Source of the DNA: Catenulispora acidiphila DSM 44928
GTDB taxonomy: Bacteria > Actinomycetota > Actinomycetes > Streptomycetales > Catenulisporaceae
Assembly: GCF_000024025.1 (NCBI RefSeq)
Contig: NC_013131.1
Span: forward strand, 6,324,001 to 6,388,000
Direction: 5' to 3'
DNA: 64,000 bases
Positions within the stretch are counted from its first letter, which is position 1; the number at the start of each line of letters is the position of its first letter. A model generated the notes under the pieces. That model saw nothing but the letters and a program-made list of their open reading frames with translations, did no database searches and was not told where the DNA came from. The position numbers were made by a program, and so were the translations under genes. Shown piece by piece: positions 8,325 to 39,912 of the stretch.

Positions 8325-9458
8325 GCCCTCGTCATCGTCCCGGAACGCCTCGGTCGCCTCCGGCTTCACCGCGCGCCACACGTGCATGGCGATCGGCCGT
8401 CCGTCCAGCAGCAGGAACATCCCGGCGCGCACGAACCCGTCGAAGCCCTTCGCCGCCCTCGCGTAAGCGCCCCGGTCGCCGGCCAGATGCGCCAGCGAGC
8501 TGTGCGCCGCCTCGATGCTCGCGGTGAGTTCCGCGGCGCGCGCCGTCAGCTCGTCGCACACGCCGCGCACCCAGGCGTCGTACTCGTCGGGCACGTCCGC
8601 CAGCAGCGGCGCCAGCGGTCCACCGGGAACCCGGCGCATGCCGACGACCTCGTTGGTCTGCACCCCGACAGCCTGCGCGATCTGCACATCGGTCGCCTCC
8701 GGGTACAGCTGCACCGCCAGCGCGCGCCACAGCTGGCGCGGGCCGACACTGGTCAGCCGGTAGTGCAGCGAGACATAGCCGGTGAGCTTGGTCTTGGTGC
8801 GCACGCCCGAGGCGAAGCGGATGACCCAGCCCTCGGCATCAGTGCCGGTGGCATCGGCGCCGTCGAGATGCTGGTTCTTCTCAGCGAGCGCAGCCAGCAC
8901 ACCGAAGGTGTCGGTCCAGTCGTAGGTACGCACGACCGAGCCGATGCCCTCCCACGCCGGCGCCGCATCGCGCAGCGCCAACTCCGAGCCGTCGGCCCGG
9001 AACGCCGCGAGCAGGACCAGGTCCCGGCGATCGCCGTAGTTCACGACGATGCGGTTCTCCGGATAGACGATCTCGGCGAGGTAGGTCACCGACGGATCCA
9101 GCGCCGAGGTGTCCGCCTTGGCGAGGTAGCGCTGAGCCCAGGCAGCCTGATCGGAGATGAACGAACCCTTCGACGCCGCGTGCCACGCACCGTCGTAGTG
9201 AAAGACGATGCCCAGGGACCCGTCAACCTTGTCGTAGACCTCGAAGGGCTCGTCGGGCAGCGTCGGCGCGTAGTCGAACGTGCCGTGCTGGCCGTGATTA
9301 AAGAACTTCGGCAGACACCACGCCGCCACGCGGCCGGTCGTGTCGTCCACGATCAGGCCGCGAGTGCGGGTGGTGACGGAGGTCCAGTACTGCTCGTACT
9401 GTTCCCAGTTCTGGTCATAATGGTCGGCGTGGACCTGGCTGGTCGACGTCAACCGCAC
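8322..9458 (-). CDS. T4 Rnl1-type RNA ligase, C-terminal part (gene split by the integrative element)
   Basis: From 9386 downward this is native ligase sequence: 354 residues starting W-TSVTTRTRGLIVDD. It contains the nucleotidyl-transferase motif I VYDKVDGSLG with the AMP-accepting Lys, and later TYLAEIVYP, GWVIRF and TKTKLTGYV motifs. The first 58 residues of the gene are 30 kb away at 39736-39912. The frame stays open into the element; GTG at 9458 would put 24 element-encoded residues in front, with only a poor, distant ribosome site (GGGAAGG). Whether this hybrid is made or active is unknown. The uninterrupted enzyme would seal RNA ends prepared by the adjacent kinase/phosphatase. Confidence 0.8.
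   Translation of the reverse strand: MRLTSTSQVHADHYDQNWEQYEQYWTSVTTRTRGLIVDDTTGRVAAWCLPKFFNHGQHGTFDYAPTLPDEPFEVYDKVDGSLGIVFHYDGAWHAASKGSFISDQAAWAQRYLAKADTSALDPSVTYLAEIVYPENRIVVNYGDRRDLVLLAAFRADGSELALRDAAPAWEGIGSVVRTYDWTDTFGVLAALAEKNQHLDGADATGTDAEGWVIRFASGVRTKTKLTGYVSLHYRLTSVGPRQLWRALAVQLYPEATDVQIAQAVGVQTNEVVGMRRVPGGPLAPLLADVPDEYDAWVRGVCDELTARAAELTASIEAAHSSLAHLAGDRGAYARAAKGFDGFVRAGMFLLLDGRPIAMHVWRAVKPEATEAFRDDDEG
9386..9401 (+). repeat. attL (core repeat, left end)
   Basis: AGTACTGCTCGTACTG; identical to 39738-39753. It is itself an inverted repeat (AGTAC/GTACT around TGCTC). Confidence 0.92.
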
Positions 9459-9815
9459 TTGAGCACCGAATACCTTCCCTGAGCTGCGCTGGAAGGACGC
9501 CACCCTCGTGACGGCCACCGTGTCAGATCGTGTCACATCATTGCGTTGGGCGGTGCGGTAACGGTGTTGCGGGCCCGTTTTCGAGGCTGCTGTGTTAAAT
9601 CTGTGTTGGCCTGGTAGGGCTACACCGCCATGGGGCGAAGAACTATCACCACAGGTCAGGGGCAGTTTCTTCGCTGGCATTTGCCATTCATCACCGCACG
9701 CTTGCTCTTGGAACGGCGCCCTAAATGCGGCGTATGACCGTTTCGTCACCAACCAAGTGGTCGCGCACCGCGATGCCGTCAAGGCGGCTGGCCCTGCAGT
9801 TCTGGTCAGCGACCA
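9459..9815. other. Left end of the element, no convincing gene
   Basis: Apart from the possible minus-strand extension of the split ligase frame, I see no coding region here. There is a tandem pair GTGTCAGATC/GTGTCACATC near 9521-9540 on the plus strand, which could be arm-type recombinase or excisionase sites; this is only a position-based guess. Confidence 0.4.
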
Positions 9816-9845
9816 CTAGTCACTTGCCTATAGTCAGGTAACTAG
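9816..9845. promoter_or_regulatory. Palindromic candidate operator
   Basis: Imperfect 30-bp palindrome: 12 of 15 half-site positions pair, with outer arms CTAGT.AC and GT.ACTAG. It covers the -35 box and most of the spacer of the promoter for the gene at 9860, the classic placement for a repressor site. Confidence 0.6.
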
Positions 9846-9852
9846 GTATGAT
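9824..9852 (+). promoter_or_regulatory. Sigma-70-type promoter of a leaderless gene
   Basis: TTGCCT (9824-9829), 17-nt spacer, TATGAT (9847-9852). Transcription would begin about 7-8 nt later, at or beside the ATG at 9860. Confidence 0.65.
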
Positions 9853-9859
9853 AGTGATC

Positions 9860-10336
9860 ATGGCTATTAAGAATCCGCTGATGGGGGCTGCCGAGATCGG
9901 CAAGCTGTTCGACGTCAGTCGTCAACGAGTCCAGCAACTGATCGCCAAGGCCGATTTCCCCGTCCCCGAAGCGGACCTGGCCATGGGCAAGGTCTGGAGC
10001 ACCAGGAACGTCAAGGACTGGGGTTTGCAGGCCGGCCGGCCCTTCCTCGTTGCCTACGCGTTCCGTGACCGGGACGGGCAATGGCACGGGCCTGAGCACC
10101 GGCTCGAGACCGGCTACGTCGAGGGCGTGCTGGCCATCTCCGACGACGCCAACGCCAAAGCGTTCGCCGGACAGACCATCACGCTGCGATGCGGGTTCCT
10201 CGCCGGGCAACCCAACCCCGTCGCTGGCGATATCTCTGCCAACTTCGCAATCGTCACCGGCCCCAACGATCAGCGCTACGGCGTTCTACTCACCCACGAA
10301 GTTGCAGATCTCCTCGCTGGCACCTACACCGAGTAA
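9860..10336 (+). CDS. Small helix-turn-helix protein of the element
   Basis: 158 residues starting MAIKNPLMGAAEIGKLF. Residues 8-50 (GAAEIGKLFDVSRQRVQQLI) form a MerR/excisionase-like helix-turn-helix. The remainder is a beta-rich domain I do not recognise. An upstream in-frame ATG at 9848 lies inside the -10 box, so ATG 9860 is the likely start and the mRNA would be leaderless. The palindrome over its promoter suggests autoregulation. It could be the element's regulator or excisionase; position and fold support that only weakly. Confidence 0.65.
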   Translation: MAIKNPLMGAAEIGKLFDVSRQRVQQLIAKADFPVPEADLAMGKVWSTRNVKDWGLQAGRPFLVAYAFRDRDGQWHGPEHRLETGYVEGVLAISDDANAKAFAGQTITLRCGFLAGQPNPVAGDISANFAIVTGPNDQRYGVLLTHEVADLLAGTYTE

Positions 10337-10399
10337 GGGGCCCACGGGCTGGATTCGGCCCGCTGACGCAGGGCTCTGAAGCGAGGCGATCACGCCCCG

Positions 10400-11269
10400 T
10401 CATGAAACTGGGGGGACTCCCGCCGGCGGCGGCAGGATCACCGGAATTGACTGGAACTGCTCGACCTGCGCCAAGCCATCGATCCCGCCCACGACGTCGA
10501 GGCTGTTGACCGGGGGCCACCACACGGTGGGGTTCTTCGGCGGCCAGATCTGCACGAGTACGCGCCCCAAATCGTCACCCACGTCGGCCTGGACCTGAAG
10601 GTCGCCCGGAGCGAAGCCAAGGTCCGTGGCGACCTTGTCGCTGACGGACGAGCCGAAGACGTCGAAGACGACGGTGAACAGCCGGAAGCGCGCGGAATAG
10701 GCCGGGATGCTGAACCGCTTGCTGCCGGCCGTCATGACCATCGGCAACTGCAGGAAGCGGGACTCTCCGATCTGCTGGCCATGCTGGCCGGTGCTCACCG
10801 ATGCCGCGCCGATCCGGATGAAGACCCCGGGCGGCGGTTCGTCGCTGCGATGGAACGCCCGGCAGTGCTCGACCGGGAGCTGCTCCTGGCGGCGGGTGAC
10901 ATGGGCCAAAATGGCGGCGGTCTTGAACGCCCACCGCGCCAGGTCGCGCTGGGCCGCCTCGTCCAGCTCAGTCTGCTTCCCACTGAACATGTTGATCAAC
11001 AGCGGCTTGGCGGCATCCTCCATGCCGCTCGTCCACACGTTGTTGCAGGGCCCGCAGAGGATCTTCAGCGTCTTGCTGAACGGGCCGCCCACCTGGATCT
11101 CCGGCGCGGCACCGTCAACATACTCGCGGATTCCGCTCCCGCCATAGCCGAGCTTCTTCAGCCAGTCGCCGAAGACGTGTTCCTCGGTCAGCGGGCCGCG
11201 GGAGCCATAGAACAGACACACCTTGACCCGCCTCGGCTTCCGGGGCGCCTTCTTACTCGTCGAACTCAT
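10400..11269 (-). CDS. HNH-like zinc-finger protein with one cysteine missing
   Basis: 289 residues, basic N-terminus (SKKAPRKPRRVK). The pattern KVCLFYGSRGPLTEEHVFGDWL followed by ILCGPCNNVWTSGMEDAAKP resembles actinomycete HNH-like proteins that normally read CxxC...EHVF..W...CxxCNN.W. Here the second Cys of the first pair is Tyr (CLFYG), so the zinc knuckle may be incomplete. The C-terminal two thirds carry no motif I know. It stands alone on the minus strand inside the element. A nuclease role is possible but the altered site makes activity doubtful. Confidence 0.55.
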   Translation of the reverse strand: MSSTSKKAPRKPRRVKVCLFYGSRGPLTEEHVFGDWLKKLGYGGSGIREYVDGAAPEIQVGGPFSKTLKILCGPCNNVWTSGMEDAAKPLLINMFSGKQTELDEAAQRDLARWAFKTAAILAHVTRRQEQLPVEHCRAFHRSDEPPPGVFIRIGAASVSTGQHGQQIGESRFLQLPMVMTAGSKRFSIPAYSARFRLFTVVFDVFGSSVSDKVATDLGFAPGDLQVQADVGDDLGRVLVQIWPPKNPTVWWPPVNSLDVVGGIDGLAQVEQFQSIPVILPPPAGVPPVS

Positions 11270-11433: not shown

Positions 11434-12438
11434 TCAGGAAGCCCGGCTCTCCGCCTGGACGGCCTCGGCTTCCTGGCGGTTCTTCCGCTGCGCGCGCAGA
11501 CCGGTGCCACGAGGCTGGTCACCCCCGTTGCCTCGCCGGGGTGGCTCTTCGCCGGTTCCCGCTTGGCTAGGAACTTTTTTGACCTTCAGTCCGGCCATGC
11601 GGCCACGGGTGGCCTGGCTGGTGTCGCATGTCAGAAGACGCACTTCGCGGCCCGCGATCGCCCGGATCGTGGCGGCGCGTTCGATGATCTCGTCATCGGC
11701 GATGGGCTGACGGGTGTGCCCCGGCTGGTCTAGGACGATCTCGACGGTGACCTGTCCGACGATTGACTGGCCCTCGCCTGGCGCCGAACGGTGCAGGATG
11801 CCGGTGACTCCTGAAGTGATCGCCTCATCCAGGCGTCCCAGGGTGTGGCCGGCGCGCCATCGGGGATGAGTGCCGCCAGTTTCCTTGAGCCGGTCAAGCT
11901 CGTCGACCACCACTATCGGGAACAGCAGGTGGATCTCCTCCTCGACGTGCAGACCCATGACACGGTGAAAGCTGGTGTCTGCGAAGCGCTCGGGGCTGCT
12001 GAGGTAGAAGCTGGAGTCGGCGACGACAAGCCACTTCGGGTCGCCCCAGCGCCCTGCGTACTCGTTCAAGGTCTTCATTGCCGCGTCGAGAGCATCGACG
12101 CGATCGGCGAGTTCCTGGTCGACCAGCCCGTAGACGAGGCCCTGCTGGTCGGTTCCGGCCAGCATGCCGCAGGACTCGAGGAGCGCGTAGTAGCGGCGGG
12201 TCAGGATGAGGTCGTCGACGTCGTTCCGGCTGATCTTGTCCTGAAGGAGTCGAGTGGCGTCAGTGACCCACTCCAAGTACTTCAGGAGCCGCTGGTAAGC
12301 CGAGGAAGGACTCGCACCCCGCAGGTTGGACGCGTCTAAGCGAGCCCGCTGAAGGGCCTCGCTAATGCTGCTTCGGTGGGCGCCCGGCCTCGGGGTAATG
12401 AGCATGGGCTGATCGTGCCACTCAGACGCTGCTGGCAT
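11434..12438 (-). CDS. PIN-domain protein
   Basis: Up to 334 residues; a second in-frame ATG at 12405 (MLITPRPG) is an equally possible start, since neither has a clear ribosome site. The C-terminal half looks like a PIN nuclease: WLVVADSSFYL (first Asp, about 136), FPIVVVDELDRLKE (second acidic pair), DDEIIERAATI and VRLLTCDTSQATRGRM (late acidic cluster). PIN proteins are metal-dependent ribonucleases, many of them toxins. No antitoxin-like small gene is adjacent. The tail is rich in Arg/Gln/Glu. The function is inferred from the fold only. Confidence 0.6.
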   Translation of the reverse strand: MPAASEWHDQPMLITPRPGAHRSSISEALQRARLDASNLRGASPSSAYQRLLKYLEWVTDATRLLQDKISRNDVDDLILTRRYYALLESCGMLAGTDQQGLVYGLVDQELADRVDALDAAMKTLNEYAGRWGDPKWLVVADSSFYLSSPERFADTSFHRVMGLHVEEEIHLLFPIVVVDELDRLKETGGTHPRWRAGHTLGRLDEAITSGVTGILHRSAPGEGQSIVGQVTVEIVLDQPGHTRQPIADDEIIERAATIRAIAGREVRLLTCDTSQATRGRMAGLKVKKVPSQAGTGEEPPRRGNGGDQPRGTGLRAQRKNRQEAEAVQAESRAS

Positions 12439-12790: not shown

Positions 12791-13219
12791 TTATTGCGCC
12801 GCTAGCTCGCGAAGCGGTAGTGGATCGTCAGCCGCCACGTATCGAAAACTCTGCGGAGGCTGAAAGACCCCGCTCTCCCGCAAGTGATAGAGGTGCAGTG
12901 GCTCATCGAGTTCGCAGATGGCGGTCAGGTGCAGGAGGTATGCCTGATCGGCGCCGTCGAGGTACCCGTCAAACTCTTCCTTTGTCAGACCCAACCGGGC
13001 GCGATGCCGCTTCCACGCCGTCTCAGGAGCAGCGACGTCAACAGTTCGCAGCCGTGCCGTGCCAACGATCGCCATCGTCGGCGCTGACGAGTACAGAACA
13101 ACTCTTGTGCCGGCACCGGCGGCAATAGGTCGTCGCCTAAGCTCCACCGTTTTGGAGCCCTCGAGAATCGCTTCTGCGAAGCGAGGACGCAAAGACAAGA
13201 GGAGCACACGATCAGTCAC
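12791..13219 (-). CDS. ASCH-domain protein coupled to the GNAT-PIN gene
   Basis: 142 residues from GTG. The opening VLLLSLRPRFAEAILEGSKTVELRRR is the typical first strand-helix-strand of ASCH (PUA-like) domains, followed by RVVLYSSAPTMAIVGTARL. ASCH folds bind RNA or modified nucleotides, and some cleave RNA. The GTG overlaps the TGA of the preceding gene (GTGA, 13216-13219), so the two proteins are translationally coupled and probably act together. A partner or antidote role for the upstream nuclease is plausible but not shown. Confidence 0.75.
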   Translation of the reverse strand: MTDRVLLLSLRPRFAEAILEGSKTVELRRRPIAAGAGTRVVLYSSAPTMAIVGTARLRTVDVAAPETAWKRHRARLGLTKEEFDGYLDGADQAYLLHLTAICELDEPLHLYHLRESGVFQPPQSFRYVAADDPLPLRELAAQ

Positions 13220-15285
13220 GATTGGCTCTGGCCTGCCAGGTAGATGGCGCCGAAATACTCAGCCGAGATCCGTACCGGTCCCTGCGGAGTTGCCTGCTCC
13301 CCGTACCGCTTTGAGAGTTCGCGCAGCTCTCGAAGCCCCACGGGTTGCGGCAGGATCTCCGTGTTCGTGAACACCAGCGCTTGCACCTGTCCTTCATGGG
13401 CCGCTGCGACGACTTGTTGTTCGTTCCACACGCCCAGGTGCCGAAACCTACTGTGCAGCTCTTGAGGTACGCCAGTCACGACAGCGTCAAGCTGCGAACA
13501 GGCAATCACGCCTGGGCTCTGCGAACGGGTCTGCCCGCCAGCGCTCATGTACCACAGCAAACGAGACGGTGCTGCCGGTCGCGGTCCACGAGGGCTTCGG
13601 TAGTAGACATGCTCCCGGCTCAGGCCCAACTGATCGTCACGGCCGTCGAGCGTCTCTGGAACCCCAAGCAAGTCGTTCGAAAAGATCTGCTTTATAGGGA
13701 TGAGATACGAGGTCAGCGCGCTGTCGACGACCTTGGCCGGCCACCAAACACGCTCGATCTCGGCAGCGGCGACTGATGGCATGGCTGATCGTAGCAATGG
13801 CGGCTCACTCAGACCTGCGTAACGCGCCGCAAGGATTGCTCGACGGCTGAGTTCCTCTGCGGTTCCACAAACGTTGAGAGAGTGGGCAACCAGCCCTCCA
13901 TCGACCGGCTGGAATCCATCTTCGAGAGCCGCCAACCGGAGCGAACGGCTTGCGTGGGCGTCGGCCAGCCGAATCGTCGAGACAGCATTCCCTCTTGCCA
14001 TCTGGCGGAGAAGGAAGATTATCTGACGCGCCAGAGTCTCGCTGAGCCGCACAGGGGCTACGCGCGCTAATGGGACAACCAACTCGTCGCCGCACGCGTA
14101 GGCGCAGTACGCGGCCGCCATGTGGCCAGCTGCGTCAACGATGCCGATCCGCTCGTGCTGGTCGCGTGCCAGCGATTTTATTAAGTCCTGGAACGCCTTG
14201 GGCCTCTCACCATCTCCCACTAGGTGCATAGCCCGAGCCGCATCGCCGGCGCCAAGCAAGCGGGAGTTCCACGCCGTGCCGAGTAGCCCGGCCGGGCGAT
14301 AAGCCTCCGCCCGAACCAACTCATCGAGATGCGTGATGACGTCAACGGGGAGCATGATCCGCAAACCGTACAGGCGCTCGCACGCTGCGCCCAACGTCCT
14401 GATCATCCGACGATCGCTGGTGATGAGCACATTCAATCCGGCAGCGATCGCGTCACACGCGTGCCGAAGGTCGAACTCGTCCTGCCTCGTCAGCGGGTAC
14501 CCAGGGGACGCCTGAGGGATTGCCGCGATGATCGCAGCCCTGGCCTCGCCAACAGCGGCTGTTTTGCTCCGCACAGCCGCCATGTTGCGAATGCTTTTGG
14601 TGCACTGCGCTCGCAGCGTGCTCTCAATGGTGTCGATCTCTGCGTTTAGGGCAGGGGTGCGAATCAACTCCAGCCTGTCGACGCTCTGGTCGTCCAATAG
14701 GGCCTGAACATCGAGGGTGTCCTGACGCTGTGGGCCGGCCAGAGCCCGCACCACGTTCAAGTCCACCGCGGCGCGCACGAGCACAAGCTCCTCTTGGCGG
14801 CTTAGCAGGTTCGGGTGCCCATGGTCCCGCCACCAAATCACCAGAATATGCCCATCGTCACTTCGACCAAGCCGTTCGCCGATCTGGCTGAAGCCCAAGC
14901 TCACCCACATTTCACCCAGGCCATAGCTATGGCGGCAACTCGCCTTGATCCCCGGGTAGTCGGCCCGTTCGTCAACAATACGTTCGACAAGTCTGCGGCC
15001 GATGCCGAGCCCACGGTAATCGGGCCTGACGCACAGGTGGGTCAGTCGCACATGGTCGCGTGTAAGGCCGTAGAGCGCGTAACCGACGATCTCTCCGCCA
15101 TCTCGCGCCAGAAGCAGACAGCCGTTGTGCGCAGCCTCCCTGTAGGCGGCAAACGGAAGATGTCCCAGGGTGTCGCGCGCCGCGTTGCCGATCAGCACGG
15201 CGGCGTCTACCTCAGCAGAATCACCTCGCCGCGCCGACGCAATCGTTATGGTGCGCGAAGTGGGTTGCTGCGACTCACTAGACAT
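13216..15285 (-). CDS. Multidomain GNAT-PIN-(GNAT-like)-PUA-like protein
   Basis: 689 residues; ATG 15285 (MSSESQQPTS) is preferred over 15354. Residues about 12-155 are a GNAT acetyltransferase with the acetyl-CoA loop VRPDYRGLGIGRRLV. Residues about 165-330 look like a PIN domain (VRAAVDLNVVRALAG, DEFDLRHACDAIAAGLNVLITSD). About 370-510 resemble a second, degenerate GNAT (FLLRQMA, LEDGFQPVDGGLV). About 545-689 form a beta-rich EVE/ASCH-like region (HVYYRSPRGP, GVIACSQLDAVVTG, AEYFGAIYLAG). It overlaps the ASCH gene by 4 nt. The combination suggests an RNA-targeting effector with a sensing domain, possibly a defence or toxin module; substrate unknown. Confidence 0.6.
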   Translation of the reverse strand: MSSESQQPTSRTITIASARRGDSAEVDAAVLIGNAARDTLGHLPFAAYREAAHNGCLLLARDGGEIVGYALYGLTRDHVRLTHLCVRPDYRGLGIGRRLVERIVDERADYPGIKASCRHSYGLGEMWVSLGFSQIGERLGRSDDGHILVIWWRDHGHPNLLSRQEELVLVRAAVDLNVVRALAGPQRQDTLDVQALLDDQSVDRLELIRTPALNAEIDTIESTLRAQCTKSIRNMAAVRSKTAAVGEARAAIIAAIPQASPGYPLTRQDEFDLRHACDAIAAGLNVLITSDRRMIRTLGAACERLYGLRIMLPVDVITHLDELVRAEAYRPAGLLGTAWNSRLLGAGDAARAMHLVGDGERPKAFQDLIKSLARDQHERIGIVDAAGHMAAAYCAYACGDELVVPLARVAPVRLSETLARQIIFLLRQMARGNAVSTIRLADAHASRSLRLAALEDGFQPVDGGLVAHSLNVCGTAEELSRRAILAARYAGLSEPPLLRSAMPSVAAAEIERVWWPAKVVDSALTSYLIPIKQIFSNDLLGVPETLDGRDDQLGLSREHVYYRSPRGPRPAAPSRLLWYMSAGGQTRSQSPGVIACSQLDAVVTGVPQELHSRFRHLGVWNEQQVVAAAHEGQVQALVFTNTEILPQPVGLRELRELSKRYGEQATPQGPVRISAEYFGAIYLAGQSQS

Positions 15286-15505
15286 GCGCGCATTGTCGTA
15301 CCCACCTTCCCTTCTGTGAAGGCTCCGGCTGAGACCGGATAATCTTCGGAACACGCTCGGCGCTCCGCACCTGGTTGGTAGTTGCGCTCGATCGGGTCAT
15401 CTAGCTTCAACTAGCGTGCTCAGATCTGCACGGACATTCACATGGTCACGTCATAACGTCTGACCTTCGGACTCCGGCCACGTCAGTTGAGGGAAGGGAT
15501 GCCCG

Positions 15506-16963: not shown

Positions 16964-17117
16964 TCCCACTGTCACGCCGTCACACTCACGCCGACCGTTC
17001 CGCATTTCTCATCGGCGTGGAGAACGGCCGAGATCGACATGTTTCACCTGAAATCGGAAACAATTAGGGTTTCGTCTCAGGGCCCGAATCCGCGCCGCAA
17101 CCGACGCGCCTGCAAGC

Positions 17118-18344
17118 TCAGAGATCCCGAAGCAGTACGTCAGAGACCGACTCCTCGTACACCGCACATCCGAGACTCTGCATAGCCAGGGACAACCGGT
17201 CGTCCCAAGGCGTTGGTTGGGCTGCGCCCTTCAGCGGAAGCCGTTCTCCTCCATCGACAGCCATGCGGTAGTCCGACGCACCGAAATGCCAGGCCGCCGC
17301 TTGATGTCGTTCGATCACTTGCCGTGCGATGGACACACCTGGCCAGTCGAAGTCACCGTGGTACCGAAGCCGTCCACCGCCATCGCGGATAATCTGCGCA
17401 AGGCGGTGGAACGCGGCGGACGGTCGACCCTCGGTGCAGATCAGCGGCCTCGACTTTGGGCCTAGTGCCTCAGACGCTCGGCGGAGCACTGCGGGGTTCT
17501 CGCACACGAAGACTTCCACGACGTCGGTCCGGACCAGGTGCCGAGACAGCTGGTTCAACGTCACCTGAAATGGAGTGCCGTATGCTGCCGCTCCCGTCAG
17601 CCACTCCCCCAGACCAGGTCCGGCCGCTGGGAGATTGAGCACCAGCACTCGACTGGCCAGGTCGTCAACGACGACGTCGGCCGACTCCCACAGTTCTCTG
17701 ATGCCCTCGGCGTCTGTGGGTAGGGGTAGTTGGGCTCGTCTGGCCAAGGCCTTCAGCACAAGCGTCGCGGTCGGTGTTCCGCGGTTCAGCGCCTTAGTGT
17801 CTGACGTAATCTTGTCCGCCAGTTCGGGAAGCAGCACGATTGTCGCGGTGCCAGCGCGCTCCTCGATGTGTTCGAGCACGCGCACTGCGTCAAGAATCCG
17901 GTGCGTACCGTTTTGGCGGATGGCTTTGGCGAGTGCACCCCCTGACTCCAGTTCCGCCGCCCATTGGCTGAACCACTCGTGCTGATCGTGTAGCGGGCTG
18001 GATCGCATCTTCGCGAGAACTGCCTCGCGGGCCGCGAGGTCGGTGTCGCGTTCGGCGGGCTTGTTCCGAAGCGGCCCGCCCAAGATGGTGAGCGCTTCGG
18101 CCAGGCTCAATCTCGTAGTGCGTCGCACCGCCTCATCGAGTTCGGTCATGCGGACTGTGACCCGTGCTGAATTCGCGCTCCGATGGCTCCTGGTCAGTCC
18201 GATCACGGCTGCTCGTTCGTCCTCGCTCGGGCTGACGATGCTCACTGAGCCGGTGAGCACTCCCCCGGACCGCTCCAGTGAGCCTCGCGCCGCCTTCCAC
18301 AAGCGTCGATATTCCGGATTGTGGTAGCGGTCCAGGCCCGTCAC
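17118..18344 (-). CDS. jetD: Wadjet type II JetD, Toprim nuclease subunit (TIGR02679-like)
   Basis: 408 residues. The C-terminal half contains the Toprim-type acidic motif YHGDFDWPGVSIA at about 332-344 and VVEVFVCENPAVLR (first Toprim strand and Glu). JetD is the topoisomerase VI A-like endonuclease that cuts plasmid DNA extruded by the SMC complex. Its ATG overlaps the stop of jetC by 4 nt (18341-18344), and it is the last gene of the four-gene operon. Family order and size match type II Wadjet, also known as the TIGR02677-02680 cluster. Confidence 0.88.
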   Translation of the reverse strand: MTGLDRYHNPEYRRLWKAARGSLERSGGVLTGSVSIVSPSEDERAAVIGLTRSHRSANSARVTVRMTELDEAVRRTTRLSLAEALTILGGPLRNKPAERDTDLAAREAVLAKMRSSPLHDQHEWFSQWAAELESGGALAKAIRQNGTHRILDAVRVLEHIEERAGTATIVLLPELADKITSDTKALNRGTPTATLVLKALARRAQLPLPTDAEGIRELWESADVVVDDLASRVLVLNLPAAGPGLGEWLTGAAAYGTPFQVTLNQLSRHLVRTDVVEVFVCENPAVLRRASEALGPKSRPLICTEGRPSAAFHRLAQIIRDGGGRLRYHGDFDWPGVSIARQVIERHQAAAWHFGASDYRMAVDGGERLPLKGAAQPTPWDDRLSLAMQSLGCAVYEESVSDVLLRDL

Positions 18345-28087: not shown

Positions 28088-28088
28088 C

Positions 28089-32900: not shown

Positions 32901-33452
32901 ATCGCAGCAGATGCCGTGGAAGAGCAGCGCTCTGGCATCGTGCACCACGCCCACGACTACCTGCGACTGCGCCTCGCCGAGCAGATCCTCCTAAAAAGCA
33001 TCGAGACCTACCGCCAAGAGAATCAGGCCCCAGTCCTGCGCAGAGCCCAGCACATCTTCGCCCGGATCACTCACGACGAGTATCCCGAACTGGTCGACGA
33101 CACTGACGTGGACGGCAAGGCCGTGCTACGAGCCCGTCGCGGGTCCGGACCGCTCGTAGACGTGGAGGACATGAGCGAGGGCACGCGCGACCAGCTCTAC
33201 TTGGCGCTGCGCCTAGCGTCACTCGACCGCTACGCCGACGAAGGCCGCGCCATGCCGCTACTGCTGGACGACGTGTTGATGACGTTCGACGATGGACGCA
33301 CCGGCGCCGGTCTGAGCCTGCTCGATGAGATGGCGGACCGGTTTCAGGTCATCGTGTTCACCCATCATGAACACATCGGCCGGATCGCCCAGGACGCGCT
33401 GGCAGCAGGGCGGATTCATGTCCACGACCTCATCCCGGCTTCCGAATGCTGA
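29970..33452 (+). CDS. SbcC/YhaN-like coiled-coil ATPase
   Basis: 1160 residues from ATG 29970. The N-terminal Walker A is VVGPNEAGKSTMRNAV (about 29-44), followed by a YhaN-type DLLYGIP. Very long coiled coils (about 200-1000) are interrupted near the middle. The C-terminal signature is DMSEGTRDQLYLALRLASLDR, with Walker B MPLLLDDVLMTFDD. It is the Rad50-like partner of the preceding phosphoesterase. The GC of third positions is lower than in the flanking chromosome, as in other element genes. Confidence 0.82.
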   Translation: MRLDRLDLVKYGRFTDHVLDFSAPGVHLVVGPNEAGKSTMRNAVTDLLYGIPARTTYGYLHGMQDLRIGALLRAGDGSELEIVRLKKIKDPLRTVGDEVLDPRELQSILAGVTKDDFTDVFAIDHEELRTGGAALLAGKGDLAKALFESRSSAQLTTLLARLREEHSQLYVPRGRIPVLNAAIGPDGSLSQARRELDEQILRPETYRESERAVDDATKQYEGISEDLKRARTEQSRLTRIRQAYAGMEQRRQLLEERAQLLAAGPLVAGDVGYRYDTLRSERKEAETILQGFVDDVREVEDELREQSPDLAVLAVAETIAVLHADANGVEKAEKAGLKAARSADELRGQASSRLAKLRAGVSGDSEVETVAPTLRARVGELMNEQTVLATELGAARKQVKSRGRALDAELAKLPADAKLVDRAPLAAVVKAVPSSLSGQILALEKQYTAAQAKLAKARKRNARFALPEDVGDLTVPSVEEIAAYRKRIDDTDKAVARCGERVALRTTELTGHRRDLENFLRQDPPPSETDLAASRAHRQELWGQLHSGLVDPPSASTAPLPVSEYETAVAASDETVDRMRRDAQRMAERSQLEEAVEKTEHLLSEVQKEHEVAVEDRQALETGWNELWTPSDLPAPAVEAATDLLAALQILREQIDERDALLLTLDSDRAAANAHATRLREALADAGFAVPPESASLDELIEAASAFHATLAETAKKRSRITAAAENLRNELTDAQSEVTRLETELADWDEKWKRLLADNQLTGTPAQVAASLSELDEIARLHADALRFQEQADEADIQVSAFTSRLDQALADAGQPPLTTPDRRYAVVRSLKDYLDRQSASQDQITRLTDRLATLRGKLESARNNRAEADQNVAAVLAEDSMHHEHELVEAIERTDAIRDLDKQLKAVENSLAGAGVGIAQLEQEVSDHDPDELTALIADLDARILQLEGDLGTRAAELARCKNTLEQMNGSDAAAIAADAVEEQRSGIVHHAHDYLRLRLAEQILLKSIETYRQENQAPVLRRAQHIFARITHDEYPELVDDTDVDGKAVLRARRGSGPLVDVEDMSEGTRDQLYLALRLASLDRYADEGRAMPLLLDDVLMTFDDGRTGAGLSLLDEMADRFQVIVFTHHEHIGRIAQDALAAGRIHVHDLIPASEC

Positions 33453-33464
33453 GAGCGGAGCTCT

Positions 33465-33501
33465 GAATTTCTCACGCACGCTGAGGCGCCGGGAGAAATT
33501 C
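33465..33501. terminator. Stem-loop after the YhaO/YhaN-like operon
   Basis: Perfect 9-bp arms GAATTTCTC/GAGAAATTC (33465-33473, 33493-33501) begin 12 nt after the ATPase stop. No T run follows, so termination is likely but not certain. Confidence 0.5.
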
Positions 33502-33662
33502 GACGCCGAGAACTTCCTGTCCGCAGCAGCCAGGCACTGGAGATTGCGTGGGACTACGTCTACAGGGTCTCGTGGCGAGTCCTGACCTACGCGCGGTACC
33601 GGACCGCTTCGGTCGCCCGGTACCGCGCCTGCACGGATCAGGGATCAATGTCCTATTAGCGC

Positions 33663-35720
33663 TCAGCCTCCGCCCTCCAGCCGGCGGGAGAGCGCTGCCA
33701 GAGCCACAGCCGCCACGCGAGTCGCCGTCGCGCCTCCTCGGGCGAGGCGCCCTACGACACCTGGTCGCGCCGGCCAGACCGCCGCAACCGGCACCGGCTT
33801 TCCGAGCAGTTTTAGCAAATCCTCGCGGCTCCGCGGTGCCGCTGGATCGGCGATGCTCGTCACCAGCGGATGAATACCGTCCTTCTCTTCCGCCCACTCC
33901 TGCGGCTGCGGCGCGACAACCGTGGACAACAGAGTCAATGCACGAAGGATCAGCGCCGCGTACCCGGGACCGATCCTGGTCACGAACCCGTGAGCGATCT
34001 CGTTCCGAAGGTTGGGGCCTTCGGGCGCGGCCAACAACCAGCGGAGGAAGTAGGCCCACGACTCGTCGAGGGCCAGCTCATCCAGCTTCTTCAGGAGAGC
34101 GTATAATCCCGGGTATCCGCCCGGCGTGTCCGCAGCCTGCGTTCGATAGATGCCTTCGTCGAGCTCTCGGAGTAGAAGCCGTGCCACGGATTCGAATCTT
34201 GCCGCCGCGACATGAACGCAGGCTTCGTAATCTTCGTTCCAGAAATGGATAAATGCCCTCGCGACGCTTGCCGCGATCGTCGAATCAGCCGCGCCACGAC
34301 GCGAAAGCGTCACCATGAGTTCAGACTCACTCGGCACCCCGTATCGTTCCGCCATGCGAACGAGGCCCGTCGCGAGAAGCCGGCCTCGATTCATCGCATA
34401 GTGGTTCGCCGTCTCGGAAAGCCGATCCGCATATCCCCCGTCATCCGGCGTCGAGGTCCATCGGGGAAGACCGTCGGCGTTCAACTTCATGCTAGAGATC
34501 GCCAACAAAAAGCCGGTGGTCTTGGCGATTTGCTCGGTCTGACTCTTCAACGTCGCAAGATCACCAGAAGGGCAGTCTGTGCTCAGGAAGTACTCAAGCC
34601 CGAAGCGCCAATCCGAGTAGTTGGTGAACGGCGCAAGCCACCGCTCGATGTAGTCAGGAGGGATCGACACGGACGTGGACATGACCACGAGACCCAGGTC
34701 TGCCTTGGGGATCGCCTGCATGAGAGCGGTCGCCCGTTCGACCAAATCTGTCAGCCCATAGTCGCGCGCGACCCGCACTGCGGACTCAAGGATAGAAAGC
34801 CGGACAAGGCCTGGACGGGACAGTGCTTCATCAATATACGCCTGGGCCTCACGCCGATTGGCAGCTTGCGTCTCATCCGGCGTCTGTGCACGCCTACGCA
34901 AATAGTCGGCAAGTTCAGACCGAAGCCAGCCCTCTTCATAAGCCCGCCATGCCTCCTCCAACAGGGCATCGATACGTGCGTCATCTCCTGCACCGGCCGG
35001 GCCACCGCGCGAGGCCTTCTTGGATTCCTTCGGCTTGGTGGACAGCGCTCCGATAAGCGGCAGCACGACACCGGGCCACTTCGACTCGCCCTTCATGGTG
35101 TTCTCAGCCGCGCTCAACATCGCGCTCCGCACCTTGGCCTCGCGAGCCAGGTCACCGACGCTACGAGTAAGGTCCCATGCACGCACAAGACCCTGGGCTT
35201 GGGTCAGATCTGCTTCGGCGGTGACATCGACGTCGGCCAAGTACGCGTCGATCGCTGTCGTGGCCCGGATATACGGGTTGCCGTCGCGCCGCAGGAACAG
35301 CAGGTCGTTGAGACGGGCCTTGGCGCCCGGATGCTGCACCTTCTCGGCAAGGTCACGCCAGAGCGAGACGACCTCATCGTCCACGTCCGGCACGGCAGGC
35401 GGATAGGCGTTCGCCCCCGATCCCGACAACGGGCCCAGAGCGCAGCCCGACGGCTCGCCCCTGGCCGACAACCGAAGACCGTAAGCCATCGCGAGTACCA
35501 GCTCTCTGATCTCCGGACCTTCCGGATCCAGACCAGCGTCTGCCCCCTCTCGCCGAATGTCGTCGACGACATTCCATCGCAGGGTGCTCGTCGCATGCGC
35601 ACTGTCGAGCACCAAAGCCAGTACTTCGGCATTCTGTTGATCGTGGACATACGGCTCAAAGGGCCGGTCTGTCACGTCGGCAAGTTCGGCGGGAATGAAT
35701 TCCTCGGAGCATTCGTCCAT
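33663..35720 (-). CDS. DUF4209-like protein with a HEPN-type motif
   Basis: 685 residues from ATG 35720 (MDECSEEFIPAELADV); the frame is open upstream but crosses a decayed sigma-factor gene. The protein is mostly helical. Near residues 580-640 it has WAYFLRWLLAAPEGPNLRNEIAHGFVTRIG (motif cited here as LRNEIAHG), typical of DUF4209-type proteins. RNEIAH fits the R-x4-6-H signature of HEPN ribonucleases, seen in many abortive-infection effectors. The gene is alone on its strand between the YhaN-like gene and the XRE gene. A ribonuclease role is inferred from this one motif. Confidence 0.55.
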   Translation of the reverse strand: MDECSEEFIPAELADVTDRPFEPYVHDQQNAEVLALVLDSAHATSTLRWNVVDDIRREGADAGLDPEGPEIRELVLAMAYGLRLSARGEPSGCALGPLSGSGANAYPPAVPDVDDEVVSLWRDLAEKVQHPGAKARLNDLLFLRRDGNPYIRATTAIDAYLADVDVTAEADLTQAQGLVRAWDLTRSVGDLAREAKVRSAMLSAAENTMKGESKWPGVVLPLIGALSTKPKESKKASRGGPAGAGDDARIDALLEEAWRAYEEGWLRSELADYLRRRAQTPDETQAANRREAQAYIDEALSRPGLVRLSILESAVRVARDYGLTDLVERATALMQAIPKADLGLVVMSTSVSIPPDYIERWLAPFTNYSDWRFGLEYFLSTDCPSGDLATLKSQTEQIAKTTGFLLAISSMKLNADGLPRWTSTPDDGGYADRLSETANHYAMNRGRLLATGLVRMAERYGVPSESELMVTLSRRGAADSTIAASVARAFIHFWNEDYEACVHVAAARFESVARLLLRELDEGIYRTQAADTPGGYPGLYALLKKLDELALDESWAYFLRWLLAAPEGPNLRNEIAHGFVTRIGPGYAALILRALTLLSTVVAPQPQEWAEEKDGIHPLVTSIADPAAPRSREDLLKLLGKPVPVAAVWPARPGVVGRLARGGATATRVAAVALAALSRRLEGGG

Positions 35721-35761
35721 AGCCAATCTTAGCTTGCCGCCCGGCGCTGGCGATGGCTTTA

Positions 35762-36150
35762 TCAGGCCGCCGCCAAGGCCTCCGCACTCAGCAACGGCTC
35801 CGCCTCCCGAAAGGCGTGCAACGCGTAATGCACTGGGACTTGACCGTCCCCTCGGGCACCCCGAGTACGTCGGCGGCCTGCCGCGCCGCGAGGTCGCGGT
35901 AGAACATCTCGAACAGCGCGGCCGGCGGTCCGGGCTGAGCCGCCGCAGCGCCACCCGCACGTCGTGTGCCTTCGCGACCCCCTTGACGTCGCCGACCGCG
36001 TCGGCCATGGGGGCACGTCCTCGACGATCATCTCGGCCGTGCGTACCTGGCGGGCCTGGACCGCGTCAATCACGACCCAGCGGGCACCTGAACAGCCACG
36101 GGCGCGCCGTCCAGCACGGCGGTGTTCATGGTGGTGCTGGCGGTCATGTC
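35762..36150 (-). pseudogene. Decayed ECF sigma factor fragment
   Basis: Reading from 36110 down, several frames spell a sigma-70 family C-terminal half: WVVIDAVQARQVRTAEMIV, VRVALRRLSPDR, ALFEMFYRDLAARQAADVLG and VPEGTVKS (region 4), then VHYALHAFREA. At least three frameshifts separate these pieces, and region 2 is gone. In front, a strong ribosome site (AGGAGGGG) and ATG 36150 open a 25-codon frame ending in TGA near 36073; this seems to be the 5' remnant of another gene joined to the fragment. Confidence 0.65.
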
Positions 36151-36232
36151 AGACACCCCTCCTGTGTCCACGGATACGGGCTGGCAGGAAGCACTGGACC
36201 GCGCAGCCCTCATCGGGGAGACCGACGATTCG

Positions 36233-36499
36233 CTACGCGGACCCGCCCTCGTTCTGGCATTCGTGAGCTTCACCATCGAACAGGTCCTTGGGCGACACAC
36301 GCAATCCTTCGGCGATCTTTAGGAGGGTCAGCACGCCCGCATTGCGACGTCCATGCTCGATATAGATCAGTCCGCGAAAACTCATGTCGCTGAGGTGGGC
36401 GAGTTCCTCCAAACTCAACTGCCGCGCCTCACGAAGCGTCCGGATGCGCAGGCCGAGCGCAAGCAGTCGCGGGTCGGGTGGATCGTCGGCAGATGACAC
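36233..36499 (-). CDS. XRE-family transcriptional regulator
   Basis: 88 residues from GTG 36499. The helix-turn-helix spans about 14-70: LGLRIRTLREARQLSLEEL, AHLSDMSFRGLIYIEHGRR and LTLLKIAEGLRVSPKDLF, the classic Cro/C1 pattern. It is divergent from the integrase with about 340 nt between them, so it may repress integration or excision functions. The short C-terminal tail carries no other domain. Confidence 0.85.
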   Translation of the reverse strand: MSSADDPPDPRLLALGLRIRTLREARQLSLEELAHLSDMSFRGLIYIEHGRRNAGVLTLLKIAEGLRVSPKDLFDGEAHECQNEGGSA

Positions 36500-36727
36500 G
36501 ACTCGACTGAATCGGCGCGAAGATCAGCGAACCATGAACAGCTGTGCATAATCGATTCGACGCGGCTACGACGTCGCTCTTTGCACGCGAATGCACGACC
36601 GAAAGGCATCCGGACATGGGCACAAGGCTGCAATCGTTCTGGCTGCCGCGACAGTCACGGAGCGACGGCGGTTCGTCAGATCATGTGCCTGTTGCAGGAC
36701 CGGGGGTGGCTGCGGACCGTCCCTCGC

Positions 36728-36841
36728 ATGAATACTCCGCAGCAGGTCCTGACGGCCTTGCCCAAGAAGTCGTCCTGGACCGTCGGCGCGCTCCGACGCG
36801 TCCAGAAGTGCTCGACGTTGTCGGCGGGAGGCGCACAGTGA
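36728..36841 (+). CDS. Possible small ORF coupled to the integrase
   Basis: 37 codons from ATG 36728 (MNTPQQVLTALPKKSSW), with mostly G/C third positions. Its TGA overlaps the integrase GTG (GTGA). The frame is open upstream to 36581, so a longer product is possible. No known motif; it occupies the place where excisionase genes are often found, but it does not look like one. Confidence 0.25.
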   Translation: MNTPQQVLTALPKKSSWTVGALRRVQKCSTLSAGGAQ

Positions 36842-38082
36842 GCGGCATCCGGAGCAGCAGCGGGATCATTAAGACCCTCGATGGCATCACCATCTATCCT
36901 CCGGTGCACGACGACGACCCGTGGCGCGCCGCCTATTACGATCGCGACGGTAGGCGCAAGTATCGCCAGGCCGTCGACGAGGACGGGCTGGCGCGCAAGC
37001 TCGATCCGGTCAAGCGCCGGCTCGCGGGTCTCCCCGACCTCACCCGGTTCGAGGCAGCGTCAGGCGCCGACCTCATCGCTTACTACCTCTCTCCCGACCG
37101 GTTACCGACTGACAGGCAGTGGTCGAGCTCCTATCGAGCAGATCAGGAGCGATTCGGAAGGAAGGCGCGCGAGGTGATCGGCGAGGTGCCGTGCCGAGCC
37201 ATCGAGACGTGGCATATGCAGCAAATCGTCAACCGCGCAAATACCGCGACTACGGGCGCCCGGATGCGAACGTTCATCTCAGGGCTGATCAAGGTCGGCA
37301 GCAGCGTGGGGTTCCTCACTGAGCCATTGCCGACTGTCGTCCACTGGCAGGCCGGCGATCGTCCTCGCCCCACTCCGAGAGCGCGGATCTGCGGAGAGAG
37401 CTCCGACTTCATCGACATGGCCTCGCTACCGCGCCATCAGGATGTGTCGGCACTCGCCTTGGCCACACAGCAGAAGAGGCTATGCCTCTGGTGGCGTGAG
37501 TTGATGCCGTACGTCGCGGCCTACTCAGGTATCCGACGCGGCGAAATGCTCGCGCTTTCGGCCGACGACGTGGATTCGACAAGACGCACGATCGCCGTCC
37601 TGCGGAAGGTCATCGAAGTCAACGGCAAGCAGACCATCGAGCTACCGAAGAACGGCATCATCCGCACGACCCTGTTCCCTGAGATGGCGCCGGACGGCTA
37701 CCGTCTCGCCGACATGCTCGCCCGTCGTATCAGTGAGGCGAGAGCTGAACGGGACGCCGGTTCCAATCCCAACGCGCTACTCTTCCCCGCCAGAGGCGGC
37801 AAGTACATGTACGCCTGCAGCTTCTACTCGTCCATCGCAGAGCCAGCATTTGCGGCGGCTGGATGGCGCACTCCCGAGTCAGGCCGTCGTTGGACTTGGC
37901 ACACACTCCGGCACGTCTTCTGCACCACTGCGCTCGTCGAATGGAAGCTCGACCTACCCGACATTTCCAAGCTCGCCGGACACTCCACCATCCGCATCAC
38001 ATCGGACAGATACGTCGGCGCTGTGACTGGGACCCTTGAACGAGCCTTCGAGCGAACTCAAGTCAAACGGACCATGGACTGA
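36838..38082 (+). CDS. int: Tyrosine recombinase (integrase) of the element
   Basis: 414 residues from GTG 36838, preceded by GCGGGAGG at good spacing. Catalytic residues of the tyrosine recombinase family are visible: Arg in AAYSGIRRGEMLALS (about 231), HTLRH (about 355-359), and GHSTIRITSDRYVG (His about 381, nucleophile Tyr about 392). The N-terminal part (about 95-190) is the SAM-like DNA-binding domain. An att-like sequence begins 26 nt after the stop, and the true right end is 1.7 kb further. It most likely inserted the element into the RNA-ligase gene, and the rebuilt target has the inverted-repeat layout this family uses. Confidence 0.9.
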   Translation: MSGIRSSSGIIKTLDGITIYPPVHDDDPWRAAYYDRDGRRKYRQAVDEDGLARKLDPVKRRLAGLPDLTRFEAASGADLIAYYLSPDRLPTDRQWSSSYRADQERFGRKAREVIGEVPCRAIETWHMQQIVNRANTATTGARMRTFISGLIKVGSSVGFLTEPLPTVVHWQAGDRPRPTPRARICGESSDFIDMASLPRHQDVSALALATQQKRLCLWWRELMPYVAAYSGIRRGEMLALSADDVDSTRRTIAVLRKVIEVNGKQTIELPKNGIIRTTLFPEMAPDGYRLADMLARRISEARAERDAGSNPNALLFPARGGKYMYACSFYSSIAEPAFAAAGWRTPESGRRWTWHTLRHVFCTTALVEWKLDLPDISKLAGHSTIRITSDRYVGAVTGTLERAFERTQVKRTMD

Positions 38083-38107
38083 CAAGGTGCCAACACAGGC
38101 AGGTTAT

Positions 38108-38133
38108 TTCGATAATCGGCACTGCTCGGATTG
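38108..38133 (+). repeat. Degenerate internal att-like site
   Basis: 26 nt that match the right-end sequence 39728-39753 at 21 positions, including TTCGATAAT and ACTGCTCG. It lies just downstream of the integrase gene, the usual place for an attachment site, and together with the true right end brackets the two PIN genes. Confidence 0.65.
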
Positions 38134-38298
38134 AACACGCTGTTTCGCCATCTGCCTGAACGTTCGAGTTGGCAAATTTGATCCGCACTGGTGTCGTCCT
38201 TACTTGTCGTCATCGGTAGTCGTTGGCCGACCTTTCACGGCTCAAAGCCAGTCCGCGACGGCAACCTCCGTAACACGCAGATCCGTGCTTCAATCAGT

Positions 38299-38952
38299 TT
38301 ACTCAACGCCGCCGTTCGCTCCCTGGCCGATATCAGCCTCTGCAGGCCATTCGGGAAGTGGACCGCGTTCAGGCAGAAGGCTGTGCAACTTCCGCATCGC
38401 GGCGACCCGGCTTCGTGTTTCACTGAGAGCTTGAGTTGGAGTCCAGATTCGCATGCCAGCTGAGCCTGACAAGTTCTGGATGACAGAGTCCTTCTTGACA
38501 AGCTTTATATCGCTAGTGACGAAGGCGTATCCCGCGTAGCGGATTGCGGTGGACACGTGCATTGCGTCCCGCAAATCGTTCTTGTTCGCTGCATTCCGGT
38601 CCTTACCCGGAAATAGCATCGCGAACACGGCGTTAAGTCGCATCTCGTCTTCCCCGGTCGCGTAATAGCTGCGGTCCCACCGGGAGTGGCCCCATACTGC
38701 GGGTCCGTACGTCTCTGGGAAGTCAGCCGTCTCAGCCAGGCGTCTCGCGACGGTCTCGTCATCTTGGCCATCGGTCCGCTCGGTGTCCACAACGTCAGTA
38801 CGGGCTAACCCAATCCAACCTTCGGTCCAAAACCTCAGGAGGTTGCTGATGTCCGACGGGGTCTGAGTGTTGTCCAGGAAGTCGATGAGGACGTTGCTGT
38901 CGAGGTAGTACTGGACTCCGACAAGGTTCTGACCGCGCTCGAATGTTGTCAC
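38299..38952 (-). CDS. PIN-domain protein (probable ribonuclease)
   Basis: 217 residues from GTG 38952. PIN motifs: YYLDSNVLIDFLDN (first Asp, about 17), ARTDVVDTER, then NDLRDAMHVSTAIRYAGYAFVTSDIKLVKK with the late acidic residues. It lacks a preceding small antitoxin gene, unlike VapC. Its promoter (-10 GATAAT on the minus strand at 38964-38959) would start transcription at the GTG, giving a leaderless mRNA, and an operator-like palindrome overlaps the promoter. It is divergent from a second PIN gene. Confidence 0.75.
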   Translation of the reverse strand: MTTFERGQNLVGVQYYLDSNVLIDFLDNTQTPSDISNLLRFWTEGWIGLARTDVVDTERTDGQDDETVARRLAETADFPETYGPAVWGHSRWDRSYYATGEDEMRLNAVFAMLFPGKDRNAANKNDLRDAMHVSTAIRYAGYAFVTSDIKLVKKDSVIQNLSGSAGMRIWTPTQALSETRSRVAAMRKLHSLLPERGPLPEWPAEADIGQGANGGVE

Positions 38953-38958
38953 TGTTCC

Positions 38959-38987
38959 ATTATCCCCTAATACAGATCAGAATTAGG
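38959..38987 (-). promoter_or_regulatory. Promoter of the PIN gene at 38952
   Basis: Minus-strand GATAAT (38964-38959) is followed by 6 nt and then the GTG start. The -35 position (38987-38982, CCTAAT) is poor. A leaderless transcript is predicted. Confidence 0.5.
38966..38987. promoter_or_regulatory. Palindromic operator between divergent PIN genes
   Basis: 22-bp palindrome with perfect outer arms CCTAAT/ATTAGG and a GATC centre; 9 of 11 half-site positions pair. It covers the spacer and -35 of the minus-strand promoter and lies 16 nt before the ATG at 39003. Confidence 0.65.
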
Positions 38988-39002
38988 AGTAGCATCCGCA
39001 GG

Positions 39003-39461
39003 ATGTGACGCCTCGTACTCGATTCCAACGCAATCGACCCCATCGCGGACCGCCGCGGAGCCTACGAGGTGGTGCGAGCAGCGGTTGACGGTGGTGATCT
39101 TGAACTACTGATCACTCACGTTAACATCGACGAGCTTGCAGCCATCCCAGATTTGGAACGGCGCAGCTTCTTGCTACTGATTCTGTGCGACCTGGGCACG
39201 CTTGTCCCAACGGGCGCAACGGTCCTCGACTTCTCTCGACTCCACTTCTCTCGCCTCGGTGAAGATGCAGACGGTACCGAGGCACTCAGGTCCGGCAACA
39301 TCGATCACACTCGTGACGCCCTGATCGCCGTAACGGCTGAGTTCGAAAAGTGTGCACTTTTCACTAATGAACGCCGCCTGACCAACCGTGCTCGAGATCG
39401 CGGGATCGAGGTCATCACCACCGATACTCTGCTTACTGATCTGGGCTACCAGCAACCCTGA
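39003..39461 (+). pseudogene. PIN-domain gene with a stop codon right after its start
   Basis: The frame ending at 39461 begins with RLVLDSNAIDPIADRRGAY, a normal PIN start with the first catalytic Asp, and continues with LITHVNIDELAAIPDLERR, then NIDHTRDALIAVTAEFEKCALFTNERRL, which holds the other acidic residues. The only ATG before it (39003) is followed directly by TGA (39006-39008). The next in-frame starts (GTG 39069) would drop the first catalytic strand. So the gene is inactivated, has a sequence error, or starts in an unusual way. Confidence 0.6.
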
Positions 39462-39735
39462 GGCTGTCTGGAAGCGGCGTTTTCTACGCGCGTCAAGACC
39501 TGCCGATGCCCTGCCCCGTGGCTACCGCCACATAGTGCGGGCTGAGGTTCTGAGCCTTCTGTCGGACATGCAGGCTTGTCCTTTCCGGGCCGCGCTGGGG
39601 CAAGGCATGTTCTTCACCTTGCACCCCCAGCCCGGTCTGGAAGTCGCATCGCGATGGCAGGCCGACGGAATGCCCAGAACCGACCCACGTCCGCATACCC
39701 AATCCGCCGACTTCCCGCTCGACTAGATTCGATAA

Positions 39736-39912
39736 TTAGTACTGCTCGTACTGGCAAGCGCGGCTGTAGGAGTAGATCGACAGCGGCAGGGTCGGGTGCG
39801 CGCGGCGGGTGACCTTCTCCGCGGCGATCTCGCGGTCCAGGTCCTGCGGGTCCAGGACGTCGGCGAGCAGGGGGCGCTCGATGCGCTCCCCCGCCTTCGT
39901 CTGCTCACTCAT
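39736..39912 (-). pseudogene. N-terminal fragment of the split Rnl1-type RNA ligase
   Basis: 58 codons from ATG 39912 ending in TAA created at the element junction. The fragment contains HPTLPLSIYSYSRACQYEQY, the usual N-terminal segment of actinomycete Rnl1-type ligases. The native continuation, W-TSVTTRTRG, is at 9386 downward. The ATG overlaps the stop of the upstream RNA ligase gene by 8 nt (39905-39912), so the intact gene was translationally coupled to it. This fragment lacks motif I and cannot be an active ligase. Confidence 0.88.
39738..39753 (+). repeat. attR (core repeat, right end)
   Basis: AGTACTGCTCGTACTG, identical to 9386-9401; it lies in the coding sequence for YEQY of the ligase fragment. 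Confidence 0.92.

Follow-up and report, generated by a model that had tools for sequence, protein, structure and literature searches.

What separates the two halves of an RNA-repair ligase gene in Catenulispora acidiphila DSM 44928, and is the ligase still made? The question arises from a 64,000-nucleotide stretch (the window; NC_013131.1 of assembly GCF_000024025.1, positions 6,324,001 to 6,388,000, part of one 10,467,782-bp chromosome), in which a sequence-only reading had proposed a 30-kb defence element inserted in the Rnl1-type RNA ligase gene (rnl1). We compared the window with ten Catenulispora genomes (G000, which holds the window, to G009) and consider it very probable that a modular defence island is driven by its integrase into a core within rnl1, and that it spreads between Catenulispora species with exchange of its defence cassettes.

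Island boundaries and empty sites

The integrated island occupies positions 9386-39753 (30,352 bp core to core) and is bounded by two exact copies of the 16-bp core AGTACTGCTCGTACTG, attL at 9386-9401 and attR at 39738-39753, as the sequence-only reading had located them. Even with two mismatches allowed, the window has no third copy of the core, and none was found in 100 shuffles of the sequence. The G+C content in 2-kb bins is 0.59-0.66 inside the island versus 0.68-0.75 in the flanks. The island separates the displaced 5' fragment of rnl1 (39736-39912, minus strand, 58 codons), which at its start shares 8 bp with the ligase gene upstream, from the 3' remainder (8322-9386, minus strand, 354 codons, with the KVDGS motif). 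Once one core copy and the interior are removed, 8322-9401 and 39754-39912 (1,239 bp) form a single open frame of 412 amino acids across QYEQYWTSV, and both the coordinates of the pieces and the restored frame given previously are correct.

The locus taken by itself is weaker evidence than it appears, and two counts weigh against reading it alone. There are 57 distinct 16-mers repeated in the window, so a direct repeat proves nothing by itself; the rebuilt target, CCAGTAC-TGCTC-GTACTGG, is exactly the described 7-bp inverted repeat around 5 bp, but the window holds eight perfect 7-5-7 inverted repeats, and we dropped the palindrome as stand-alone evidence. The repeated 16-mers could speak for a chance repeat or an assembly artefact. 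This explanation, whose probability we consider negligible, is refuted by the equal structure in three separate assemblies and by empty sites in seven. We regard the comparison of genomes as the decisive support for the island, rather than the repeat or the palindrome.

This comparison demonstrates the island, its site and the empty counterparts of that site. The rnl1 gene is contiguous in seven of the ten genomes (G001 and G003-G008), and all seven carry the exact 16-mer inside the ligase, giving attB = AGTACTGCTCGTACTG in each; the palindrome arms match at 7/7 positions in four of these natural empty sites and at 6/7 in the other three. In the remaining three genomes (G000, G002, G009) rnl1 is split at the identical place. 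Exactly these three encode a near full-length integrase of 87-100% identity (Fisher p = 0.0083) and the SbcC-like backbone gene at E <= 1e-50. Distant integrase relatives or fragments (38-47%) were detected in G001 and G008, both with an intact ligase. Relatives without a contiguous rnl1 frame or without the 16-mer had been named as grounds against the insertion; all seven genomes that lack an integrase of at least 87% identity have both. The rejoined flanks of G002 equal the empty site of G001 at 214 of 223 bases. When one mismatch is allowed, each genus genome contains one to three copies of the 16-mer; G003 (6% contamination) has two more exact copies outside rnl1.

Core-to-core sizes are 30,352 bp in the window, 41,931 bp in G002 and 1,831 + 34,266 bp in G009. 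The G009 island spans two contigs with an unproven junction, which counts against a complete picture of that copy, and a lack of other cargo cannot be claimed there.

Outside the genus, 394 genomes drawn from the larger class were searched, with the best three or four candidates per genome scored at E <= 1e-60 (integrase) and 1e-40 (ligase). The ligase was detected in 16 of the 393 sampled non-genus genomes, each time as one stretch without stops, and the integrase in none of the 393 among the candidates scored. QYE is kept in 13 of these 16 ligases and QYW, the second half of the core, in none, which fits an island limited to Catenulispora.

Integrase and the crossover

The integrase gene (36544-38082, plus strand) encodes a tyrosine recombinase with the expected domain and the catalytic motifs GIRRGE, HTLRH and GHSTIRITSDRY, and is apparently intact. 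With identical flanking cores and empty sites in relatives, the element has two hallmarks of a tyrosine-integrase island. In the proposed mechanism the integrase would recombine the core of its own attP with the 16-bp palindromic core at the rnl1 codons QYEQYW, cutting rnl1 after about codon 58, and excision would restore the gene. Against this part of the account, no directionality factor was identified, and neither excision nor a circular form was seen.

The cores of the other two islands suggest where the strands are exchanged. The G002 attL departs from attB at positions 14-15 alone, its attR at position 4 alone, and the G009 attR carries the same position-4 change. Because this change is shared by G002 and G009, we take the variant letters as those of attP and not as later mutations; if so, strand exchange between core positions 4 and 14, around TGCTC, is strongly indicated.

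The left end of the island (9402-9614) is kept in all three islands though the adjoining cargo differs, and is the probable integrase arm region, with possible arm sites. A degenerate internal att-like copy lies directly 3' of the integrase gene (38108-38133), with a counterpart in G002 and a weaker one in G009. Between it and attR is a module (38134-39737) with two genes (38299-38952, minus strand, and 39069-39461, plus strand) whose PIN matches are below the Pfam cut-off. The module is common to the window and G002 and different in G009, where a further integrase of that family (56% identity) survives as a C-terminal remnant directly against attR (L038, about 10230-10630). The right end thus looks like an accretion of modules.

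No conjugation genes were found among the island open reading frames (ORFs) scanned against Pfam (some small ORFs were outside the scan), and no mobilisation genes were recognised among those scanned. The PHROGs scan of ten proteins detected integrase and SbcC/D-like matches, together with weak matches labelled tail or terminase (E 0.008-0.03). The integrase had no pattern match in IMG/VR, two records of one phage at 24.5% identity and one plasmid record at 26.9% identity.

Repeated occupancy of the rnl1 site

G002 and G009 share their islands at 98.6% identity across 29,098 bp, while the flanking repair-gene sequence agrees at 86.3-88.5%, with one 383-bp patch at 79.4% (BLAST pieces of 80 bp and less were omitted). 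In the tree of the ligase body, the split gene of G002 is sister to the unsplit gene of G001 (support 1.000) and the split gene of G009 to the unsplit gene of G003 (support 0.997); the window copy branches separately and has no close unsplit sister. Since the islands are far closer than their flanks and two split genes have unsplit sisters, this site has been used more than once through horizontal transfer: it was occupied at least twice and, judged from these sequences, probably three times. The island moves among Catenulispora species into the identical site.

A single ancestral insertion inherited vertically by the three species would also explain the identical site and the related integrases. 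It is contradicted for G002 and G009 by the unsplit sisters of two of the three split genes (the window copy standing apart) and by islands much closer than their flanks. A second locus agrees on the host distances (G001 is 95% identical to G002 and 87% to G009). We reject a single vertical insertion, which is very improbable.

The target gene and its repair cluster

The rnl1 remainder scores 55.2 bits against Pfam RNA_lig_T4_1 (cut-off 28.3), and the KxDGS residues K111, D113, G114 and S115 are invariant in 16 intact sequences. The modelled intact relative (mean predicted local distance difference test, pLDDT, 90.4) has T4 RNA ligase 1, 2c5u, as its best solved fold (Foldseek E = 4.2e-14). 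Counting against the Rnl1 assignment, the NCBIfam T4 RnlA model gives the remainder 38.7 versus a cut-off of 242, and a PDB sequence search with an intact ligase returned no ligase, only weak unrelated matches. Because the T4 RnlA score is so far below its cut-off, we describe the target as a distant Rnl1.

The host genes on the minus strand follow the order Hen1 RNA 3'-end methyltransferase (43738-45273), bacterial Pnkp (kinase-phosphatase-ligase, 41133-43745), DRB0094-type RNA ligase (Rnl, 39905-40987), Rnl1 and T4-like Pnkp (kinase and HAD phosphatase, 7254-8246), with 8-bp overlaps between Hen1 and Pnkp and between Rnl and Rnl1. With the island in place, rnl1 and the T4-like Pnkp gene behind it are cut off from Hen1, Pnkp and Rnl upstream. 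The order Rnl-Rnl1-T4-like Pnkp is kept in all seven empty genus loci. Seven of the 16 non-genus loci were checked: all seven have a T4-Pnkp-like match beside Rnl1, the most distant ones weak, and none of the seven has a DRB0094-type ligase there. A short tandem repeat of GGGCTCA-type units lies at window positions 8260-8320, in the gap that separates rnl1 from the T4-like Pnkp gene.

Fate of the split ligase

We consider rnl1 to be probably inactive while the island is integrated, and this is the likelier state of the gene. Several observations weigh against inactivation. The ligase frame runs into the island in all three copies, with a start (GTG, GTG and ATG) at the equivalent place; in the window this extension covers 9402-9458 (minus strand, GTG start), in frame in 3/3 islands. 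The remainders have no stops, and pairwise ratios of nonsynonymous to synonymous substitution rates (dN/dS) are 0.105-0.318 for pairs that include a split gene and 0.138-0.284 for intact pairs (omitting the paralog and one non-genus sequence). Such undecayed remainders could reflect a recent insertion or residual function.

The island could instead leave the ligase working by supplying a new promoter and 5' end (the start at 9458 and its counterparts), and a chimeric Rnl1 could be produced from the island-made start, as proposed for dusA islands. The equivalent in-frame starts favour this reading, all the more as one of the islands has a 21-bp difference that keeps the frame, and so do the undecayed remainder and the replacement of the target's 5' end by dusA islands described in the excerpt of PMC4482086. 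The island end also weakly resembles the lost peptide (p 0.007-0.03 for the better one of two offsets, among related sequences), which points the same way. Against it, the substitutions of the extension between the window and G002 fall at codon positions one to three as 3, 2 and 4, with no third-position bias. The G+C content of codon position 3 is 0.64 in 9402-9782 versus 0.90 in the gene body, and no sigma-70-like promoter matched on the minus strand of 9300-9900, a search that did not cover other promoter types. Eight invariant residues are lost with the 5' fragment (L25, V34, R36, H39, P40, L42, L44 and Y49). In the model of the chimera, residues 1-35 are disordered and the prediction stays weak up to about residue 70, with block means of 24-66 over the first 70 residues versus 91-97 over residues 11-80 of the intact ligase, and the model suggests that the island-made N-terminus fails to restore the ligase fold; the shallow alignments (15-16 sequences) behind both the chimera and the intact-ligase models tell against leaning on them heavily. 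On balance we find a working chimera unlikely.

A switch, in which conditional excision, for example on infection, restores rnl1, is a little less likely still. The precise att sites, the apparently intact integrase and the halves of the window copy that still join in frame are in its favour. The displaced 5' fragment of G009, however, has an in-frame stop near the usual start, and excision there would not plainly return the usual protein.

The genome of the window has a second Rnl1-type ligase (G000:C1:3322549-3323646; L019, L021), which has no stops and is 56% identical over residues 16-283. It adjoins a T4-Pnkp-like gene, and its core has two mismatches to the att core. This ligase may compensate for the split rnl1. 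No second ligase at E <= 1e-5 was among the matches listed for the other nine genus genomes.

Backbone and defence cargo

The element was correctly described as a defence element, with a tyrosine recombinase and complete Wadjet II and Septu sets. The type II Wadjet set JetABCD (17118-25778) is on the minus strand, with JetA at 24012-25778, JetB at 22615-24012, JetC at 18341-22618 and JetD at 17118-18344. The Septu pair (25848-28087) is on the plus strand, with the ATPase PtuA at 25848-27332 and the HNH protein PtuB at 27329-28087. All six are near full-length model matches; with all subunits present, the two systems are ordinary members of their kinds carried as cargo.

The comparison of the three islands shows defence cassettes exchanged around a constant backbone of the integrase, an SbcD/SbcC-like pair, a PDC-S39-like protein and one further protein. 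The backbone is conserved at 89-94% DNA identity in 15466-17092, 28350-33484 and 33485-38095 (BLAST pieces under 100 bp omitted). The SbcD-like metallophosphoesterase (28696-29973) and SbcC-like ATPase (29970-33452), both on the plus strand, are retained by each of the three islands (93-96% protein identity), while other cargo is swapped. The backbone protein at 33663-36008 (minus strand) has a partial match to the PADLOC candidate defence family PDC-S39, and the further backbone protein (15506-16963, plus strand) has no family match. Plus-strand ORFs at 33548-34252, 34212-35732 and 35695-36393 were considered as integrase partners and rejected: they have no family match, and the substitution phase marks the minus-strand frame 33663-36008 as the coding one.

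The Wadjet II proteins of G002 and G009 are 44-59% identical to those of the window and 99-100% to each other. Further cargo of G002 comprises a CD-NTase/HORMA/AAA/SAVED set, a PLD protein with a kinase-helicase, a caspase-helicase and a DrmD-like helicase; the last two are common with G009, which has an extra Schlafen-AlbA_2 protein and an M78-HTH protein. The window copy carries a PIN_4-domain protein (11434-12438, minus strand). At 13216-15354 of the window, a 712-amino-acid ORF has an N-terminal GNAT domain, a remainder without match and an ASCH-like protein as its neighbour.

According to excerpts of PMC13096335 and PMC11555353, an E. coli Septu and its relative in retron-Eco7 cleave tRNA-Tyr, and T4 Rnl1/Pnkp is described as repairing cleaved RNA in the excerpt of PMC4411300. 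The island might pick rnl1 since disabled RNA repair would strengthen its immunity, making the insertion site part of the defence; if true, excision would switch RNA repair back on. The T4-like Rnl1/Pnkp pair that it severs is of the type that reverses tRNA cleavage, and effectors that may cut tRNA or other RNA are Septu and the PIN_4 protein in the window, weakly PIN-like proteins in the window and G002, and the Schlafen-AlbA_2 protein in G009. The coincidence of Septu with the severed repair pair is no evidence of function, as RNases may be frequent among the genes of defence islands, and we consider this proposal improbable. The coincidence makes a direct test possible of whether rnl1 loss strengthens tRNA-cleaving immunity.

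Relation to known islands

The sequence-only reading had called integration into a protein gene unusual, which is overstated: in the TIGER/Islander survey 43.4% of 1,757,053 mapped islands lie within coding sequence (PMC12424338), and the dusA islands offer a similar case. Its remark that it knew of no described element targeting an RNA ligase agrees with the literature matches listed (for example the best 12 of 749), none of which describes such a target, the TIGER table being outside that search. New here are the use of rnl1 as a target, more than once, and the joint occurrence of Septu with the loss of a T4-kind repair pair. An RNA-repair ligase thereby joins the genes used as island landing sites; three split and seven intact genomes form natural replicates for comparing cargo, target and occupancy, and the rnl1 islands show the exchange of defence cassettes around a fixed integrase backbone.

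Of the described cases that we found, the dusA islands come nearest. As described in the excerpt of PMC4482086, they too have a tyrosine integrase and use a conserved site within the 5' portion of a gene whose enzyme acts on RNA; their cargo varies around a constant integrase, and island sequence takes the place of the target's 5' end. They differ in the target, which here is rnl1 and not a dus gene, and in their integrases, reported in the same excerpt as limited to Proteobacterial lineages; moreover, the replacement 5' end in the rnl1 island looks unable to restore the fold, and most of its recognised cargo is anti-phage. Islands of the SGI1 type at trmE and their relatives at dusA are also located in genes of tRNA-modifying enzymes, but are mobilised by conjugative plasmids, according to the excerpt of PMC8409611, whereas the rnl1-island ORFs scanned include no recognised mobilisation gene. 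T4 Rnl1/Pnkp tRNA repair and bacterial Pnkp-Hen1 repair are both treated in PMC4411300, as excerpted: the severed pair has both T4 enzyme types and the neighbouring Hen1 and Pnkp represent the bacterial system. The difference from T4 is that in Catenulispora the genes are chromosomal and an island target.

Islands in tRNA genes are related through the integrase. In G001 a second integrase (L041, 4154-4600), 47% identical to that of the window, adjoins tRNA-Pro(ggg) at a break in genus synteny. The flank downstream of it matches other genus genomes over about 130 bases or less only, and no second att copy of this tRNA site was found in the 40 kb read. The relative probably uses the tRNA-Pro site, a site probable rather than proven, and this suggests that the rnl1-targeting integrase has tRNA-targeting relatives.

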